A model generated the notes under the pieces. It was not told the DNA's origin and made no database searches. It saw only the letters and a program-made list of their open reading frames with translations. From Halosegnis marinus (GTDB lineage: Archaea; Halobacteriota; Halobacteria; Halobacteriales; Haloarculaceae): a stretch of 64,000 nt of DNA. Of the stretch, positions 57,403 through 63,796 are shown one piece after another. Location of the stretch: contig NZ_CP119802.1 in the NCBI RefSeq assembly GCF_029338355.1, positions 992,001-1,056,000 on the forward strand. Reading direction: 5' to 3'. Position 1 is the first letter of the stretch. Each line of letters begins with the position of its first letter. Both the position numbers and the translations under genes were made by a program.

Positions 57403-57570
57403 CTAAATCCTGTCGAGGAGGAACAGGATGATGAGTATCACGAGCACCAGCCCGATGATGGAGTCGAACGCCCCGAGCGCGAGGTCGACGACCGCGTCGA
57501 GCACCTCCAGCCCGATCCAGATGACCACGAGCACGAGCACGAGCTTCAGCAGGTCGTCGGCTTCTACCAT
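57403..57570 (-). CDS. Small two-helix membrane protein (55 aa)
   Basis: From ATG 57570 the product begins MVEADDLLKLVLVLVVIWIGLEVLDAVVD and ends IIGLVLVILIILFLLDRI. Two hydrophobic helices (about 10-26 and 37-53) make a small hairpin; ten-odd acidic residues lie between. It is a conserved-hypothetical haloarchaeal type. The TATA box of the arginine leader begins 89 bases upstream of its start on the other strand. Confidence 0.7.
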   Translation of the reverse strand: MVEADDLLKLVLVLVVIWIGLEVLDAVVDLALGAFDSIIGLVLVILIILFLLDRI

Positions 57571-57658
57571 GGGCCCGCCTGCTCGCGGCGGCGGCATAAG
57601 CGGTACGGCCGACACGTGGCGTGTTATCACGGTCGGCGAGGGTTGCGGGTGCGCAAGC

Positions 57659-57666
57659 GTTTAATA
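57659..57666 (+). promoter_or_regulatory. TATA box of the arginine leader/argGH transcript
   Basis: GTTTAATA is centred 28-29 bases before the leader ATG at 57692. Transcription would begin near 57688-57692 and give the small leader frame no untranslated sequence, while argG would then be about 170 bases inside the mRNA. Confidence 0.5.
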
Positions 57667-57691
57667 GCGCGAGGTGGCTACGGTGGAGTAG

Positions 57692-57775
57692 ATGACGACC
57701 ACTGCCGCTGTCCGTGGCACGCTCGCCGCCAGCGGCGGCCGCGCTTTCTCCGTGCGACCGCGACCGGGCCTCTGA
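57692..57775 (+). CDS. Putative 27-residue arginine leader peptide
   Basis: The frame MTTTAAVRGTLAASGGRAF continues to ...SVRPRPGL and stops at TGA 57773-57775. It holds four arginines; the last two are CGA, a codon rare in this GC-rich genome, separated by one residue just before the stop. It precedes argG by 85 bases and starts where leaderless transcription is expected. A hairpin overlaps its stop. It could sense arginyl-tRNA levels for the arginine operon. Chance is possible. Confidence 0.4.
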   Translation: MTTTAAVRGTLAASGGRAFSVRPRPGL

Positions 57776-57780
57776 GCCCG
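57765..57780. promoter_or_regulatory. Hairpin over the leader peptide stop codon
   Basis: CGGGC (57765-57769) pairs with GCCCG (57776-57780); the loop CTCTGA includes the stop. A ribosome halted at the CGA codons would cover this hairpin. Attenuation is inferred, not shown. Confidence 0.35.
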
Positions 57781-57860
57781 TAATCACATTTCTCCCCACG
57801 ACGGTCGCCCCGCTTTCGACGACACCGCCCGGTCGGCGGTAGCCACACACCACACAACAC

Positions 57861-59165
57861 ATGACGGAGAAAGTCGCGCTCGCCTTCTCGGGCGGGCTCG
57901 ATACGACGGTCTGCGTACCGCTGCTGAAAGAGGAGTACGGCTACGACGAGGTCGTGGCCGTGACGGTCGACGTCGGCCAGCCCGAAGAGGAGTTCGCCGA
58001 GGCCGAGGAGACGGCCGAGGCGCTCGGGCTGGAGATGCACGTCGTGGACGCGAAGGCGGAGTTCGCCTCGCTGTGTCTCGACGCCGTGCGCGCGAACGCG
58101 ACGTATCAGAGCTACCCGCTCGGGACGGCGCTGGCGCGCCCGGTCATCGCGTCGGCCATCCTGAGCGTCGCCGAGGAGGCCGGCTGTACCGGCATCGCCC
58201 ACGGCTGTACCGGGAAGGGGAACGACCAACTGCGCTTCGAGGCCGTCTGGCGCGACTCCGACCTCGAGGTCATCGCGCCGGTGCGCGAACTCGGCCTCAC
58301 GCGCGAGTGGGAGAAGCAGTACGCCGCCGAGCGCGACCTGCCCGTGGAGGGCGGGTCGGGCGGCGACTGGTCCATCGACACGAACCTCTGGTCGCGCTCC
58401 GTCGAGGGGAAGGAACTGGAGGAGCCGTCGTACGTCCCCGGCGAGGAGATATACGAGTGGACGAGCGCGCCGACGGGCGAGACGGAGGAGATAACCCTGA
58501 CGTTCGAGGAGGGGTACCCCGTCGCGCTGAACGGCGAAGAACTCGGCGCCGTGGAACTCATCGGGGAGCTGAACGACCTCGCCGGGAGCTACGGCGTGGG
58601 GCGCACGGACGCGATGGAGGACCGCATGCTCGGGCTGAAGGTGCGCGAGAACTACGAGCACCCGGCCGCCACGACCCTCCTGAGCGCCCACAAGGGGCTC
58701 GAGGACCTCGTGCTCACGAAGGAGGAGCGGTCGTTCAAGACGCAGGTGGACAACGAGTGGGCGGAGAAGGGGTATCAGGGCCTCGTTGACGGCCCGCTCG
58801 TGAAGGCGCTCGACGCCTTCATCGCGACGACGAACGAGCGCGTCACCGGCACCGTCACGGTCCGCTTCGAGGGCGGGCAGGCGCGCGTCGTCGGACGCGA
58901 GTCGCCGTACGCCGTCTACTCGGCGGAGGCCGCCTCGTTCAACACCGAGGACGTGACCGGCGGCATCGAGCAGGCCGACGCGACGGGCGTCGCCAAGTAC
59001 CACGGCTTCCAGGAGCGCCTCGCCAACAGGACCATCGAGGCCGCGAACGTCGCCGCGGGGAAGACGGCCGCCGACGGCGGTGAGCCCTCAAAGCCGACGC
59101 TCGACGGCGAGTCGCCGCTGTCCGGGACCGACATCGACGAGACGGTTAGCGAGCTAGAGGAATGA
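57861..59165 (+). CDS. argG: Argininosuccinate synthase
   Basis: The 434-residue enzyme joins citrulline and aspartate using ATP, the first half of the final steps of arginine synthesis. The ATP loop is ALAFSGGLDTTVCVPLLKEEY; others are TIAHGCTGKGNDQLRFE and DTNLWSRSVEGKELEEP. Length is slightly above bacterial ones because of an acidic tail (STELE-type ending). The ATG at 57861 follows a 190-base leader region. The stop overlaps argH by four bases (ATGA). Confidence 0.96.
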   Translation: MTEKVALAFSGGLDTTVCVPLLKEEYGYDEVVAVTVDVGQPEEEFAEAEETAEALGLEMHVVDAKAEFASLCLDAVRANATYQSYPLGTALARPVIASAILSVAEEAGCTGIAHGCTGKGNDQLRFEAVWRDSDLEVIAPVRELGLTREWEKQYAAERDLPVEGGSGGDWSIDTNLWSRSVEGKELEEPSYVPGEEIYEWTSAPTGETEEITLTFEEGYPVALNGEELGAVELIGELNDLAGSYGVGRTDAMEDRMLGLKVRENYEHPAATTLLSAHKGLEDLVLTKEERSFKTQVDNEWAEKGYQGLVDGPLVKALDAFIATTNERVTGTVTVRFEGGQARVVGRESPYAVYSAEAASFNTEDVTGGIEQADATGVAKYHGFQERLANRTIEAANVAAGKTAADGGEPSKPTLDGESPLSGTDIDETVSELEE

Positions 59166-60622
59166 GCGACGACGAGAGGTCCGGGGACGTGGTGCGCCGG
59201 GAGCGGTTCAGCGGCGGCCCCGCCCGCGGGTTCCTCTCGTCGCTCGACGCCGACGAGCGCATCTTCCGCGCGGACCTGCAGGTCGACCGCGCGCACGTCG
59301 TGATGCTCGCGGAACAGGGCATCGTCGGCGACGACGAGGCCGGCGAGATACTCGCAGCGCTGGGCGAGGTGGAGGCCGCCGGCCACGGCGCGCTCCCCGA
59401 CGGCGAGGACGTCCACGCCGCCATCGAGACGGCCGTCATCGACCGTATCGGTCCCGTCGGCGGGAAGATGCACACCGCGCGCTCGCGCAACGACGAGGTG
59501 GCGACCTGTCTGCGCCACCGCCTGCGCGCCGACGCGCTCGCGCTCGCGGGGACGGTCGTCGGCGTCCGCGAGACGCTGTGTGCCGTCGCGGAGTCGCACA
59601 CGACGACGGTGATGCCCGGCTTCACCCACCTCCAGCCGGCACAGCCGACGACGGTGGCGCACTACCTGCTGTCGTACGAGTCGGCGCTGGCCCGCGACAC
59701 GGAGCGCCTGCTCGCGGCGTACGACCGGACGAACCGCTCGCCGCTGGGCGCGGCGGCGTTCGCCGGGACGACGTTCGACGTGGACCGCGAGCGCGTCGCC
59801 GACCTGCTCGGCTTCGACGGGGTCGTCGAGAACTCGATGGACGCCTCCTCGGCCCGCGACTTCCTGACGGAGACGGCCGCGGCGGCCGCGGCGCTCGCGA
59901 CGACGCTCTCGGGGCTGGCCGAGGACCTCGTCGTCTTCGCCAACAAGGGGTACGTGGACCTGGACGACGACTACGCCTCCACCTCCTCCATCATGCCCCA
60001 GAAGAAGAACCCGGACACGCTCGAACTCGTCCGCGCGGTCGCGGGCGATGCGAGCGCGGGCCTGAACGGCGTCCTGACGACGCTGAAGGGGCTACCGCGC
60101 GCGTACAACCGCGACCTCCAGCGCGCCCACGGCCACGCGTTCGACGCCGTGGACGCCGTGGCCGACGCGACGGAGGTGGCGGGCGGCGCGGTCGCCACCG
60201 CCGACTGGAACGGGGCGGCGCTGGCCGACGCCGCGGGCGAGGGCTTCTCGACGGCGACGGGCGTCGCGGACCTGCTCGCCGCGGGCGGGATGCCGTTCCG
60301 GACGGCCCACGAGATCGTGGCCGGTGCGGCGGAGCGCCTCGACGGGGGCGACGAACTCGCCGCCGTGGAGGCCGCGGCCGAGGACGCCGGGGTGGACCTC
60401 GACGCGTACGTCGAGCACGCGGCCCTGGAAGCGGCGCTCGACCCCGCGGAGAGCGTCGCGGCCCGCGACTCGCACGGCGGGCCCGCGCCCGCCGCCGTCG
60501 AGGGCGCGCTCGACCGCGCCGCGGGCGACATCGCGGAGGCGGAGACGGCGGTCGGGGCGCGCCGCGAGGCGCTCGCCGACGCCGAATCGGCGCTGGAAAC
60601 CGAGGTGGACGCGTATGTGTGA
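59162..60622 (+). CDS. argH: Argininosuccinate lyase
   Basis: The 486-residue enzyme splits argininosuccinate into arginine and fumarate. The signature loop is TSSIMPQKKNPDTLELVR near residue 275, and the substrate region TARSRNDEVATCLRHRL and VMPGFTHLQPAQPTTV are intact. It overlaps argG by four bases and is the last gene of the argGH unit. A gap of 209 bases with a new promoter precedes lysW. Confidence 0.96.
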   Translation: MSDDERSGDVVRRERFSGGPARGFLSSLDADERIFRADLQVDRAHVVMLAEQGIVGDDEAGEILAALGEVEAAGHGALPDGEDVHAAIETAVIDRIGPVGGKMHTARSRNDEVATCLRHRLRADALALAGTVVGVRETLCAVAESHTTTVMPGFTHLQPAQPTTVAHYLLSYESALARDTERLLAAYDRTNRSPLGAAAFAGTTFDVDRERVADLLGFDGVVENSMDASSARDFLTETAAAAAALATTLSGLAEDLVVFANKGYVDLDDDYASTSSIMPQKKNPDTLELVRAVAGDASAGLNGVLTTLKGLPRAYNRDLQRAHGHAFDAVDAVADATEVAGGAVATADWNGAALADAAGEGFSTATGVADLLAAGGMPFRTAHEIVAGAAERLDGGDELAAVEAAAEDAGVDLDAYVEHAALEAALDPAESVAARDSHGGPAPAAVEGALDRAAGDIAEAETAVGARREALADAESALETEVDAYV

Positions 60623-60806: not shown

Positions 60807-60831
60807 GGGGTGAGGACGGGATAGTGTGACG

Positions 60832-60996
60832 ATGGCAGAATGCATCGAGTGCGGGGCCGACGTGTCCCTGCACGACGACCTGGAAGTCGGAGAGATCGTG
60901 GACTGTGCCACCTGTGGCGCGGAACTGGAAGTGCTCGCGACCGACCCCGTCGAGCTCGACGCCGCGCCCGAACTGGAGGAGGACTGGGGCGAGTAA
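60832..60996 (+). CDS. lysW: Amino-group carrier protein LysW
   Basis: This 54-residue acidic protein (MAECIECGADVSLHDDLEVG...) has a zinc ribbon (CIECG and CATCG) and ends EDWGE, the universally conserved LysW tail whose final glutamate carries the growing substrate. It is the carrier for arginine (and possibly lysine) biosynthesis in archaea. The gene is just 165 bases, so many annotation pipelines miss it. ArgX starts 15 bases after its stop. Confidence 0.97.
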   Translation: MAECIECGADVSLHDDLEVGEIVDCATCGAELEVLATDPVELDAAPELEEDWGE

Positions 60997-61010: not shown

Positions 61011-61880
61011 ATGCGAATCGGAATGCTCTACTCGCGCATCCGCCGGGACGAGAAGCTCCTGCTCTCGGAGCTGCGCGAGCGCGGTCACGAGGTGACGAAG
61101 ATCGACGTACGGAAACAGCGGTTCGGCCTCGGGGAGCCGCCGGCGGACTTCGCGGACCTCGACCTCGTCGTGGACCGCTGTCTCGCGACCTCGCGGTCGC
61201 GGTACGTGACCCGGTTCGCGGCCCACTACGACGTGCCGGTGGTCAACCACCCGGAGACGGCGGCGGTGTGTGCCGACAAGGCGCGCAACAGCCTCGTCCT
61301 CGCGGAGGCGGGCGTCCCCACCCCCGCGACGGAGGTGGCGTTCACGAAGGAGGCGGCGATGGAGGCCATCGAGGGGTTCGGCTACCCCTGCGTGCTCAAG
61401 CCCGTCGTCGGCTCGTGGGGCCGGCTGATGGCGAAGATAGACTCCCGCAACGCGGCCGAGGCCATCCTCGAACACAAGGAGACGCTCGGCCACTACGAGC
61501 ACAAGGTGTTCTACGTCCAGGAGTTCGTCGAGAAGCCGGGTCGGGACATCCGCGTTCTCGCCACGGACGGCGAACCCGTCGCGGCGATGGCCCGCTCGTC
61601 GGACCACTGGCTCACGAACGCCGCGAAGGGCGCGGAGACGGAGCACATCGAGGTGGACGACGAGATGCGCGACCTGGTCGAGACGGCGAGCGACGCCGTC
61701 GGCGGCGGCCTCCTCGGCGTCGACCTGATGGAGACGGGCGACTCCTACACCGTCCACGAGGTGAACCACACGGTCGAGTTCAAGGCGCTGAACGAGGTCG
61801 CCGAGGTCGACGTGCCCGCGACGGTCGTCGACTGGCTGGAGGCGCGCGCCGAGCGCGGCGTCCGGGAGGCCGTCGTATGA
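61011..61880 (+). CDS. argX: LysW-glutamate ligase ArgX (LysX family)
   Basis: The 289-residue ATP-grasp ligase attaches glutamate (arginine route) or aminoadipate (lysine route) to the C-terminal glutamate of LysW. Motifs: MRIGMLYSRIRRDEKLLL start, KPVVGSWGRLMAKI (ATP-grasp), and HEVNHTVEFKALNEV (metal/substrate loop). Since argG, argH, argC, argB and argD are adjacent, the glutamate-linked arginine role is the likely one. The ATG at 61011 is 15 bases after lysW. The stop overlaps argC by four bases. Confidence 0.92.
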   Translation: MRIGMLYSRIRRDEKLLLSELRERGHEVTKIDVRKQRFGLGEPPADFADLDLVVDRCLATSRSRYVTRFAAHYDVPVVNHPETAAVCADKARNSLVLAEAGVPTPATEVAFTKEAAMEAIEGFGYPCVLKPVVGSWGRLMAKIDSRNAAEAILEHKETLGHYEHKVFYVQEFVEKPGRDIRVLATDGEPVAAMARSSDHWLTNAAKGAETEHIEVDDEMRDLVETASDAVGGGLLGVDLMETGDSYTVHEVNHTVEFKALNEVAEVDVPATVVDWLEARAERGVREAVV

Positions 61881-62908
61881 GGGCGAGCGTCGTCGGCGCG
61901 TCCGGCTTCACGGGCGGGGAACTGTGCCGGCTCATCGACACCCACCCGGAGTTCGAACTCGCGCAGGCGACCTCGCGCGAGTACGCGAACAAGACGGTCG
62001 GCCACGCGCACCCGAACCTCCGGCACCTCGACGTGCGCTTCTCGGAGCCGTCCGACCTCGAGTCCGTGGACGTGCTGTTCGCCGCGACCCCCCACGGCGT
62101 CTCGATGGAGCACATCGACGGCTTCCGCGACGCCGCGGACCTCGTCGTGGACCTCTCGGCGGACTTCCGGCTCCCCTCGGTCGAGCCGTACGACGAGTAC
62201 TACGACGGCCACGCCCGCCCGGAGCTGCTCGACGAGGCGGAGTACGCGCTCCCGGAACTCAACCGCGAGAACCTCCCCGGCGCGGACCTCGTCGCGGCGG
62301 GGGGCTGTAACGCGACGGCCTCCATCATGGGGCTGCTCCCGCTGTTCGAGAACGGAATCCTCGACGGCGACGAGCGCGTCGTCGTGGACGTGAAGGTCGG
62401 CTCCTCGGAGGGCGGCGCGGGCGGCGGGCGGGCCGCCTCCCACGCGGAGCGGTCGGGCGTCGTCCGGCCGTACGCCCCGACGGGCCACCGCCACGAGGCC
62501 GAGATAGCCGAATACCTCGGCATCGACGTGGCGTTCACGGTTCACGCGGTGGACATGATACGCGGCGCGAGCGCGACGTGTCACGTCTTCCCGGACGGCC
62601 CCGTCTCGAAGGGCGACCTCTGGGGCGCCTACCGCGGAAGCTACGAGGACGAACCGTTCGTCCGCATGGCCTCGGGCGGGGGCGGCGTCTACCGCTACCC
62701 CGAGCCGAAGGCCGTCGCCGGGTCGAACGTCGCGGAGGTCGGCTTCGAACTCGACCGGTCGAACCGCCGCGTCGTCGTCTTCTCCGCGATAGACAACATG
62801 ATGAAGGGCTCCGCCGGGCAGGCGGTCCACGCCGCCAACATCGCGCTCGGCATCGAGGAGACGGCGGGGCTGGAGTTCACCGGCCTCCACCCGGTGGGAG
62901 CGCCGTAG
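61877..62908 (+). CDS. argC: N-acetyl/LysW-gamma-glutamyl-phosphate reductase
   Basis: The 343-residue NADPH enzyme reduces the phosphorylated LysW-glutamate to the semialdehyde. It starts MRASVVGASGFTGGELCRLI (Rossmann loop) and the catalytic Cys144 is in AAGGCNATASIMGLLPL. HEAEIAEYLGIDVAFTVHAVDMIRGA and GSAGQAVHAANIALG follow. The ATG overlaps the argX stop (ATGA), so the pair is coupled. A 22-base spacer and mini-frame then precede argB. Confidence 0.94.
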   Translation: MRASVVGASGFTGGELCRLIDTHPEFELAQATSREYANKTVGHAHPNLRHLDVRFSEPSDLESVDVLFAATPHGVSMEHIDGFRDAADLVVDLSADFRLPSVEPYDEYYDGHARPELLDEAEYALPELNRENLPGADLVAAGGCNATASIMGLLPLFENGILDGDERVVVDVKVGSSEGGAGGGRAASHAERSGVVRPYAPTGHRHEAEIAEYLGIDVAFTVHAVDMIRGASATCHVFPDGPVSKGDLWGAYRGSYEDEPFVRMASGGGGVYRYPEPKAVAGSNVAEVGFELDRSNRRVVVFSAIDNMMKGSAGQAVHAANIALGIEETAGLEFTGLHPVGAP

Positions 62909-62930: not shown

Positions 62931-62987
62931 ATGACGACCGACGATTTCCATACGACGACGAGTACGGCCGTGGAGGGAAGCGAATGA
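62931..62987 (+). CDS. 18-codon mini-ORF overlapping argB start
   Basis: The frame MTTDDFHTTTSTAVEGSE ends in TGA at 62985-62987, overlapping the argB ATG at 62984 by four bases. It starts 22 bases after the argC stop, downstream of GGTTTTTCATACC. Ribosomes ending here could restart on argB, so its translation would set the amount of the kinase. It may be chance, but the exact fit is notable. Confidence 0.3.
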   Translation: MTTDDFHTTTSTAVEGSE

Positions 62988-63796
62988 CCGTCGTCGTCAA
63001 GATCGGCGGCGCGCGGGCGGTGGACCCGGCCGGCGCGCTCGCCGACATCGCCGACCTGGACGAGGACTGCGTCGTCGTCCACGGCGGCTCGACGGCGGTG
63101 GACGACACCCTCGAAGCGATGGGGAGGGAGCCCGAGTACGTGGAGACGCCCTCGGGCGTCGTCGGGCGCTTCACCGACGAGGGGACGATGGACGTGTTCA
63201 AGATGGCGCTGCCGGGGCTCGTCAACACGGACCTCGTGACCGGCCTGCGCGAGGCGGGCGTGGACGCCGTCGGCCTCTCGGGCGTGGACGGCGGGCTCCT
63301 GACCGGGGCGCGCAAGTCCGCGGTCCGGGTCGTGGAGGACGGCAAACGCAAGATTCGGAGAGGGGACCACTCGGGCACCATCGAGTCGGTGAACGCCGAC
63401 CTGCTGGAGACGCTGCTCGCGGCCGGACACACCCCGGTCGCGTCCCCGCCGATGCTGGCCGACGACGGGGTCGCGGTGAACACGGACGCCGACCGCGCGG
63501 CCGCCGCCGTGGCGGGCGCGCTCGGGGCGACGCTCGTCGTCCTGACGGACGTTGAGGGCGTGTACGCCGACCCGGACGACCCCGCGACGCGCATCGCGTC
63601 GGTGGCGACGCCCGAGGAGTACGAGGCGCTCACCGAGGCCGCGGAAGGGTTCATGACGCGGAAGGTGATGGCCGTGACCGAGGCGCTCGAAGCCGGGGCG
63701 ACGGAGGCCGTCGTCGCGTCGGCGAACGCCGACTCGCCCATCGTCGCGGCGCTCGACGGCGGCGGGACGCACGTCCTGCCGGGGGCGATAGCATGA
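62984..63796 (+). CDS. argB: LysW-glutamate / N-acetylglutamate kinase
   Basis: The 270-residue amino-acid kinase phosphorylates the side chain of LysW-linked glutamate (or acetylglutamate). It starts MTVVVKIGGARAVDPAGALA; VVHGGSTAVDDTLEAMG, VGLSGVDGGLLTGARK, VNADLLETLLAAGHTPV and NTDADRAAAAVAGALG are the ATP and substrate motifs. It overlaps argD by four bases. The ATG at 62984 is confirmed by the KIGG start of the fold. Confidence 0.94.
   Translation: MTVVVKIGGARAVDPAGALADIADLDEDCVVVHGGSTAVDDTLEAMGREPEYVETPSGVVGRFTDEGTMDVFKMALPGLVNTDLVTGLREAGVDAVGLSGVDGGLLTGARKSAVRVVEDGKRKIRRGDHSGTIESVNADLLETLLAAGHTPVASPPMLADDGVAVNTDADRAAAAVAGALGATLVVLTDVEGVYADPDDPATRIASVATPEEYEALTEAAEGFMTRKVMAVTEALEAGATEAVVASANADSPIVAALDGGGTHVLPGAIA

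Follow-up and report, generated by a model that had tools for sequence, protein, structure and literature searches.

An arginine-codon leader conserved ahead of argG in haloarchaea, a candidate ribosome-mediated attenuator

Introduction

Textbook accounts of bacterial regulation include attenuation through the translation of a leader peptide. In the window analyzed here, a stretch of 64,000 nucleotides from Halosegnis marinus, argG is preceded by a short arginine-rich open reading frame (ORF) whose stop codon lies in a hairpin, which raises the question of whether a leader of this kind could control arginine synthesis in an archaeon. A search confined to an open-access library turned up neither a leader-peptide attenuator in archaea nor any account of a haloarchaeal argG leader. 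The initial annotation had read the element as a translation-linked arginine sensor, and this reading is now supported by order-wide conservation and strong codon-level selection; that arginine is sensed, and that control acts on transcription, is inferred. The element probably gauges charged tRNA-Arg as a ribosome-mediated attenuator and thereby controls the expression of argGHWXCB.

Architecture of the argG leader and its operon

The features of the locus are listed in Table 1. The positions of the TATA box, the ATG, the 27-residue frame, the hairpin with the stop in its loop and the 85-base gap before argG, all of which had been given in the initial annotation, were found to be right on re-reading, and its four Arg codons with two CGA near the stop were confirmed from the sequence. 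These codons are, in order, CGT, CGC, CGA and CGA, with the CGAs at 57755–57757 and 57761–57763, and the stop, TGA, occupies 57773–57775. The rarity of CGA in the genes of the window had been missed. On the basis of the distance from the TATA box to the ATG, transcription is predicted to start at or next to the leader ATG and thus to yield a leaderless mRNA, the form reported for 72% of transcripts in Haloferax volcanii (PMC8576121). Downstream, argG, argH, argW/lysW, argX, the argC-like gene and argB/lysZ lie on the same strand, and the leader therefore heads an arginine operon. A gene for a small hydrophobic protein (57403–57570, minus strand), divergent from the leader, is apparently kept in the genus and has no NCBIfam match.

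Table 1. Features of the leader and the arginine operon (positions in the window)
Feature	Position	Strand	Basis or remark
TATA box TTTAATA	57660–57666	+	leader promoter; read from sequence
Leader ORF MTTTAAVRGTLAASGGRAFSVRPRPGL, 27 codons + TGA	57692–57775	+	ATG at 57692; sequence and conservation
Control codons CGA-CCG-CGA (Arg-Pro-Arg)	57755–57763	+	immediately 5' of hairpin
GC hairpin CGGGC (57765–57769)-CTCTGA-GCCCG (57776–57780)	57765–57780	+	sequence, arm covariation
G-free tract TAATCACATTTCTCCCCAC	57781–57799	+	3' of hairpin; sequence
Second hairpin ACCGCC-CGGTC-GGCGGT	57824–57840	+	20 nt before argG; sequence and fold
argG, argininosuccinate synthase	57861–59165	+	first operon gene; NCBIfam NF010392 (637 bits), TIGR00032 above cut-off
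argH, argininosuccinate lyase	59162–60622	+	TIGR00838 above cut-off
argW/lysW-type amino-group carrier protein	60826–60996	+	TIGR01206 above cut-off; NF041070 below its cut-off
argX (LysX/RimK-family ligase)	61011–61880	+	TIGR02144 above cut-off; start by inspection
argC-like reductase gene	61877–62908	+	ORF, position and sequence, no profile scan; start codon at 61877
argB/lysZ-type kinase	62984–63796	+	NF010661 above cut-off

Distribution among haloarchaea

In 123 haloarchaeal argG upstream regions, a sample in which a few genomes occur twice (e.g., L012 and L142), the short ORF and its hairpin are kept across the order, with 120 of the regions showing an Arg-rich tract and a hairpin after it. 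When a strict detector combining a TATA box, an ATG, an Arg-rich end and a stop in the hairpin was scored against Markov shuffles, the full arrangement exceeded the 99th percentile of the shuffles in 106 of the 123 regions; the feature is far more than a product of chance. The element is present in 13 of the 16 argG-bearing families of the order (f1, f3–f7, f10 and f12–f17), f16 being represented by one locus at which no in-frame stop was scored, and it was not seen at argG of f2, f9 and f11 in a search that included the deep families. The argG genes without the leader are L262, L265 and L267 (f2), L271, L272, L274 and L275 (f9) and L273 (f11); these three families are deep or have small genomes, and their ArgG proteins are 57–65% identical to that of the window. 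Two second argG copies (L015 and L095), each placed immediately after another gene and each from a genome with a further argG copy, also lack the element, and one genome (G045) has three argG matches.

The layout is constant. A TATA-like hexamer lies 29–34 nt, start to start, upstream of the leader ATG in 116 loci, followed by an ORF whose length varies from about 20 to 50 codons and then by the Arg tract, the hairpin and a tract almost without G. Over ATG-to-hairpin lengths of 53–143 nt, the first in-frame stop falls inside the hairpin in 112 of the 116 loci with a TATA-spaced ATG, against a random-frame expectation of one third (p about 5e-48 if the loci were independent, which they are not fully). 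Absence of the short ORF or hairpin from related genera had been named in the initial annotation as grounds for refuting its reading. These genera instead conserve the ORF, its CGA-rich end, the placement of the stop within the hairpin and the distance from the TATA box.

The element is also specific to argG. A covariance model of its core ranks the leader of the window first in the 2.8 Mb genome (E 7.9e-6, against 0.10 for the runner-up) and detected no convincing second copy in 29 genomes of the family; second matches in L305 and L306, considered as further copies, fall within coding genes and were dismissed as chance hits. A scan of about 30 genomes each for a leader of the same design upstream of hisG, trpC, leuA and carA found none, at a stringency comparable to that at which 17 of 28 argG leaders were recovered. 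No consistent Arg-rich leader was found in the argG upstream regions of methanogens, other archaea and bacteria, and an Rfam search of 57500–57950 gave no match up to E 1.

The hairpin and the adjacent tract

The arms of the hairpin change in step among loci, as in GGGCC/GGCCC, GGGGTC/GACCCC, CGGGC/GCCCG, GGGGC/GCCCC, GACGGGC/GCCCGTC and GGCCC/GGGCC, and the exact reversal of the second pair, GACCCC/GGGGTC, occurs in L269. Since the detector demands complementary arms, the arm tally alone is biased, and native and swapped arm halves were compared at the same loci in a chimera test, in which the native halves gave an average of -12.2 kcal/mol and the swapped halves -10.1 +/- 0.2 kcal/mol. In a MAFFT alignment with fixed pairs, where arms of unequal length shift the register, the covariation signal was absent. 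At 104 of 106 loci, the first base of the stop falls within the hairpin loop or on its border. The stops at these loci comprise 70 TAG, 34 TGA and 2 TAA, and the G of TAG opens the 3' arm; the preference for TAG possibly reflects a structural constraint.

Within the 15 nt 3' of the hairpin, G makes up 1–3% of positions against a background of 26% (120 loci). The tract is rich in T and C and contains no U run beyond a few residues, and at the locus of the window it is likely to be an exposed termination or loading site. A conserved antiterminator was sought across the order by fold and chimera comparison, and none was common, which counts against the attenuator reading; the Arg tract pairs with RNA farther downstream only slightly better than in chimeras (z -2.3, controls near 0), a lineage-bound signal that makes such pairing possible in some genera. 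The whole-leader fold of the window's own sequence, a single sequence, is somewhat stable (z -2.3). The second hairpin of the window (Table 1) is conserved in the genus and recurs in L010, L089, L105 and L256 in a similar form with apparent compensation but is not order-wide; its GCCCGGT could pair with the complementary ACCGGGC in the leader hairpin. At several loci (L108, L111, L112, L120, L172 and others), a conserved element, (G)GGTTAGC, occurs 45–70 nt past the leader hairpin, often after a CCGAAA...TTTTCGG inverted repeat.

These structures bear on what a leader ribosome might control. The same sensor could have another output, the ribosome deciding either the cleavage or decay of the leader RNA by aCPSF1 or another RNase or the translation of argG, while transcription is unchanged. 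Cleavage, like termination, could take place at a hairpin with single-stranded, G-free RNA behind it, and aCPSF1 itself terminates through transcript cleavage (PMC8116511). However, the T/C-rich tract resembles the termination motifs reported in haloarchaea (PMC7237163), and the distance from the leader stop to argG, 68–178 nt with a median of 138, is too great for simple translational coupling. This alternative is accordingly judged unlikely, and termination of transcription is favored as the output of the putative attenuator.

Codon selection at the leader end

Arg codons concentrate 4–7 codons 5' of the leader stop, and the last 12 leader codons contain a mean of 4.4 of them. In this segment, CGA accounts for 316 of 463 Arg codons (68%) vs 30 of 801 (4%) in 43 argG genes, an enrichment of about 55-fold in odds, whereas CGC accounts for 12 of 463 (2.6%) vs 572 of 801 (71%). 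The proportion of CGA is 69% when distinct tails alone are counted (n = 89) and 16% of Arg codons in the heads of the same ORFs. CGA is very rare in the genes of the window, with 3 occurrences among 135 Arg codons in five genes. The use of a rare codon agrees with theory, in which attenuators gain sensitivity from codons that are rare or selectively charged and rarity does not by itself explain everything (PMC1183508). In 81 of 106 loci, the last CGA or CGG starts 4–5 nt before the 5' arm of the hairpin, close enough for a ribosome stalled there to cover that arm. The leader of the window holds two CGAs only, which counts against reading it as an attenuator.

Outside the Arg residues, the peptide sequence shows no conservation among loci, and the codons rather than the peptide are therefore under selection. 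Selection on the decoding of particular Arg codons would predict this pattern, and neither an arrest peptide nor a motif for binding would. A nascent peptide could nevertheless act if free arginine in the exit tunnel stalled the ribosome, as in the fungal arginine attenuator peptide (AAP) or bacterial SpeFL, and many leaders do end in RRPG(L/R/S)-stop. The hairpin sequence in part fixes this end, other endings are common (RRRAL, RRAF, RPRR and RRGR), the upstream part of the peptide is unconserved, and the strong preference for CGA over its synonym CGC points to codons, not peptide; peptide arrest is thus very unlikely. Alternatively, the conservation of GACGACGACCGGG and the inverted repeat in many lineages could indicate that an arginine-responsive protein binds here, to DNA or RNA, with the CGA repeats forming part of the binding motif and the ORF incidental. 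Such a site is highly improbable, since the frame is kept over the very different ORF lengths given above, the Arg codons remain Arg while the nucleotide motif shifts among mixtures of CGG, CGA, CCG and TTC, and the stop codon stays in the loop regardless of the arm sequence. Decoding of the Arg codons by the leader ribosome, as in an attenuator, would account for these features.

Promoters of argG

Some lineages carry a proximal TATA element (AATTTA/TTTAAG) about 25–45 nt before argG itself (e.g., L012, L036, L106, L112 and L114). It was found in 17 of 17 loci of f4, 5 of 5 of f6 and 18 of 29 of f7 and in none of f1, f5 and f12. A promoter at this position, which counts against the attenuator reading, would bypass the leader, and the leader could therefore govern at most part of argG expression in f4, f6 and most of f7, while in f1, the family of the window, the leader promoter is the only evident one. 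One-promoter and two-promoter lineages have the same leader in common, and in several families the (G)GGTTAGC element sits between the leader and the proximal promoter. An independent small protein gene whose terminator merely precedes argG, as its own promoter, its terminator-like hairpin and the second argG promoter of some families might suggest, is scarcely credible, for the protein is unconserved apart from Arg and matches no family, and the small ORF was not found elsewhere in the genomes and is tied to argG in the 13 families.

Proposed mechanism

Based on these features, a possible mechanism can be proposed for attenuation at argG. Transcription would begin at the leader ATG, and the first ribosome would load on the leaderless mRNA close behind RNA polymerase. 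When Arg-tRNA is sufficient, the ribosome would decode the CGAs, reach the stop in the loop and depart; the hairpin could then fold with the G-free tract bare, and transcription would stop short of argG, with termination brought about by the T/C-rich tract on its own or by aCPSF1/FttA, an archaeal factor. When Arg-tRNA is scarce, the ribosome may stall on the CGAs, 4–20 nt upstream, with its front edge over the 5' arm, and the stalled ribosome would shield the downstream RNA, allowing polymerase to proceed into the operon. The operon would be repressed when arginine is plentiful.

Several of these steps have precedents. Ribosomal proteins are recovered together with purified haloarchaeal RNA polymerase, which is biochemical support for coupling in this group (PMC8576121). 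In H. volcanii in vivo, transcription is terminated by a hairpin and T-stretches (PMC7237163), and aCPSF1/FttA, which has been likened to Rho, is proposed to compete with the coupled ribosome (PMC8116511). The full proposal, that an archaeal attenuator is near-universal in haloarchaea, senses tRNA-Arg through CGA, couples leaderless translation to polymerase and terminates by aCPSF1/FttA via one stop-holding hairpin without an antiterminator, has in our estimate an even chance of being correct. If true, it would explain the regulation of arginine synthesis in haloarchaea and would provide a small, ready-made test bed in archaea for coupling, ribosome stalling and factor-dependent termination.

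Comparison with known systems

Like the haloarchaeal element, T-boxes and amino acid riboswitches are leader RNAs before amino acid operons, but here a single short hairpin lies inside an ORF, and Rfam gives no match. Fungal AAP and bacterial SpeFL likewise tie an upstream ORF to arginine metabolism; they depend on a conserved nascent peptide, whereas the haloarchaeal leader conserves only Arg codons, mainly CGA. In TnaC-type leaders that act via Rho, the stop adjoins a G-poor, C-rich tract, where release or stalling of the ribosome exposes or covers a site for the termination factor. The haloarchaeal leader similarly has its stop beside a G-poor tract but, unlike TnaC, has no conserved arrest peptide; to our knowledge, Archaea lack Rho.

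In bacteria, arg genes are usually controlled by ArgR and not by a leader peptide, and the closest parallels are found in other amino acid operons. Unlike bacterial attenuators, the haloarchaeal leader has a predicted leaderless start and a single simple hairpin that holds the stop, with no conserved antiterminator and no long U run. Like the bacterial trp, his, leu, thr and ilv leaders, it is a short ORF at the 5' end whose control codons specify the amino acid made by its operon and lie directly before a hairpin, upstream of the first biosynthetic gene, and, as in the bacterial leu leader, the control codons are of a rare type.
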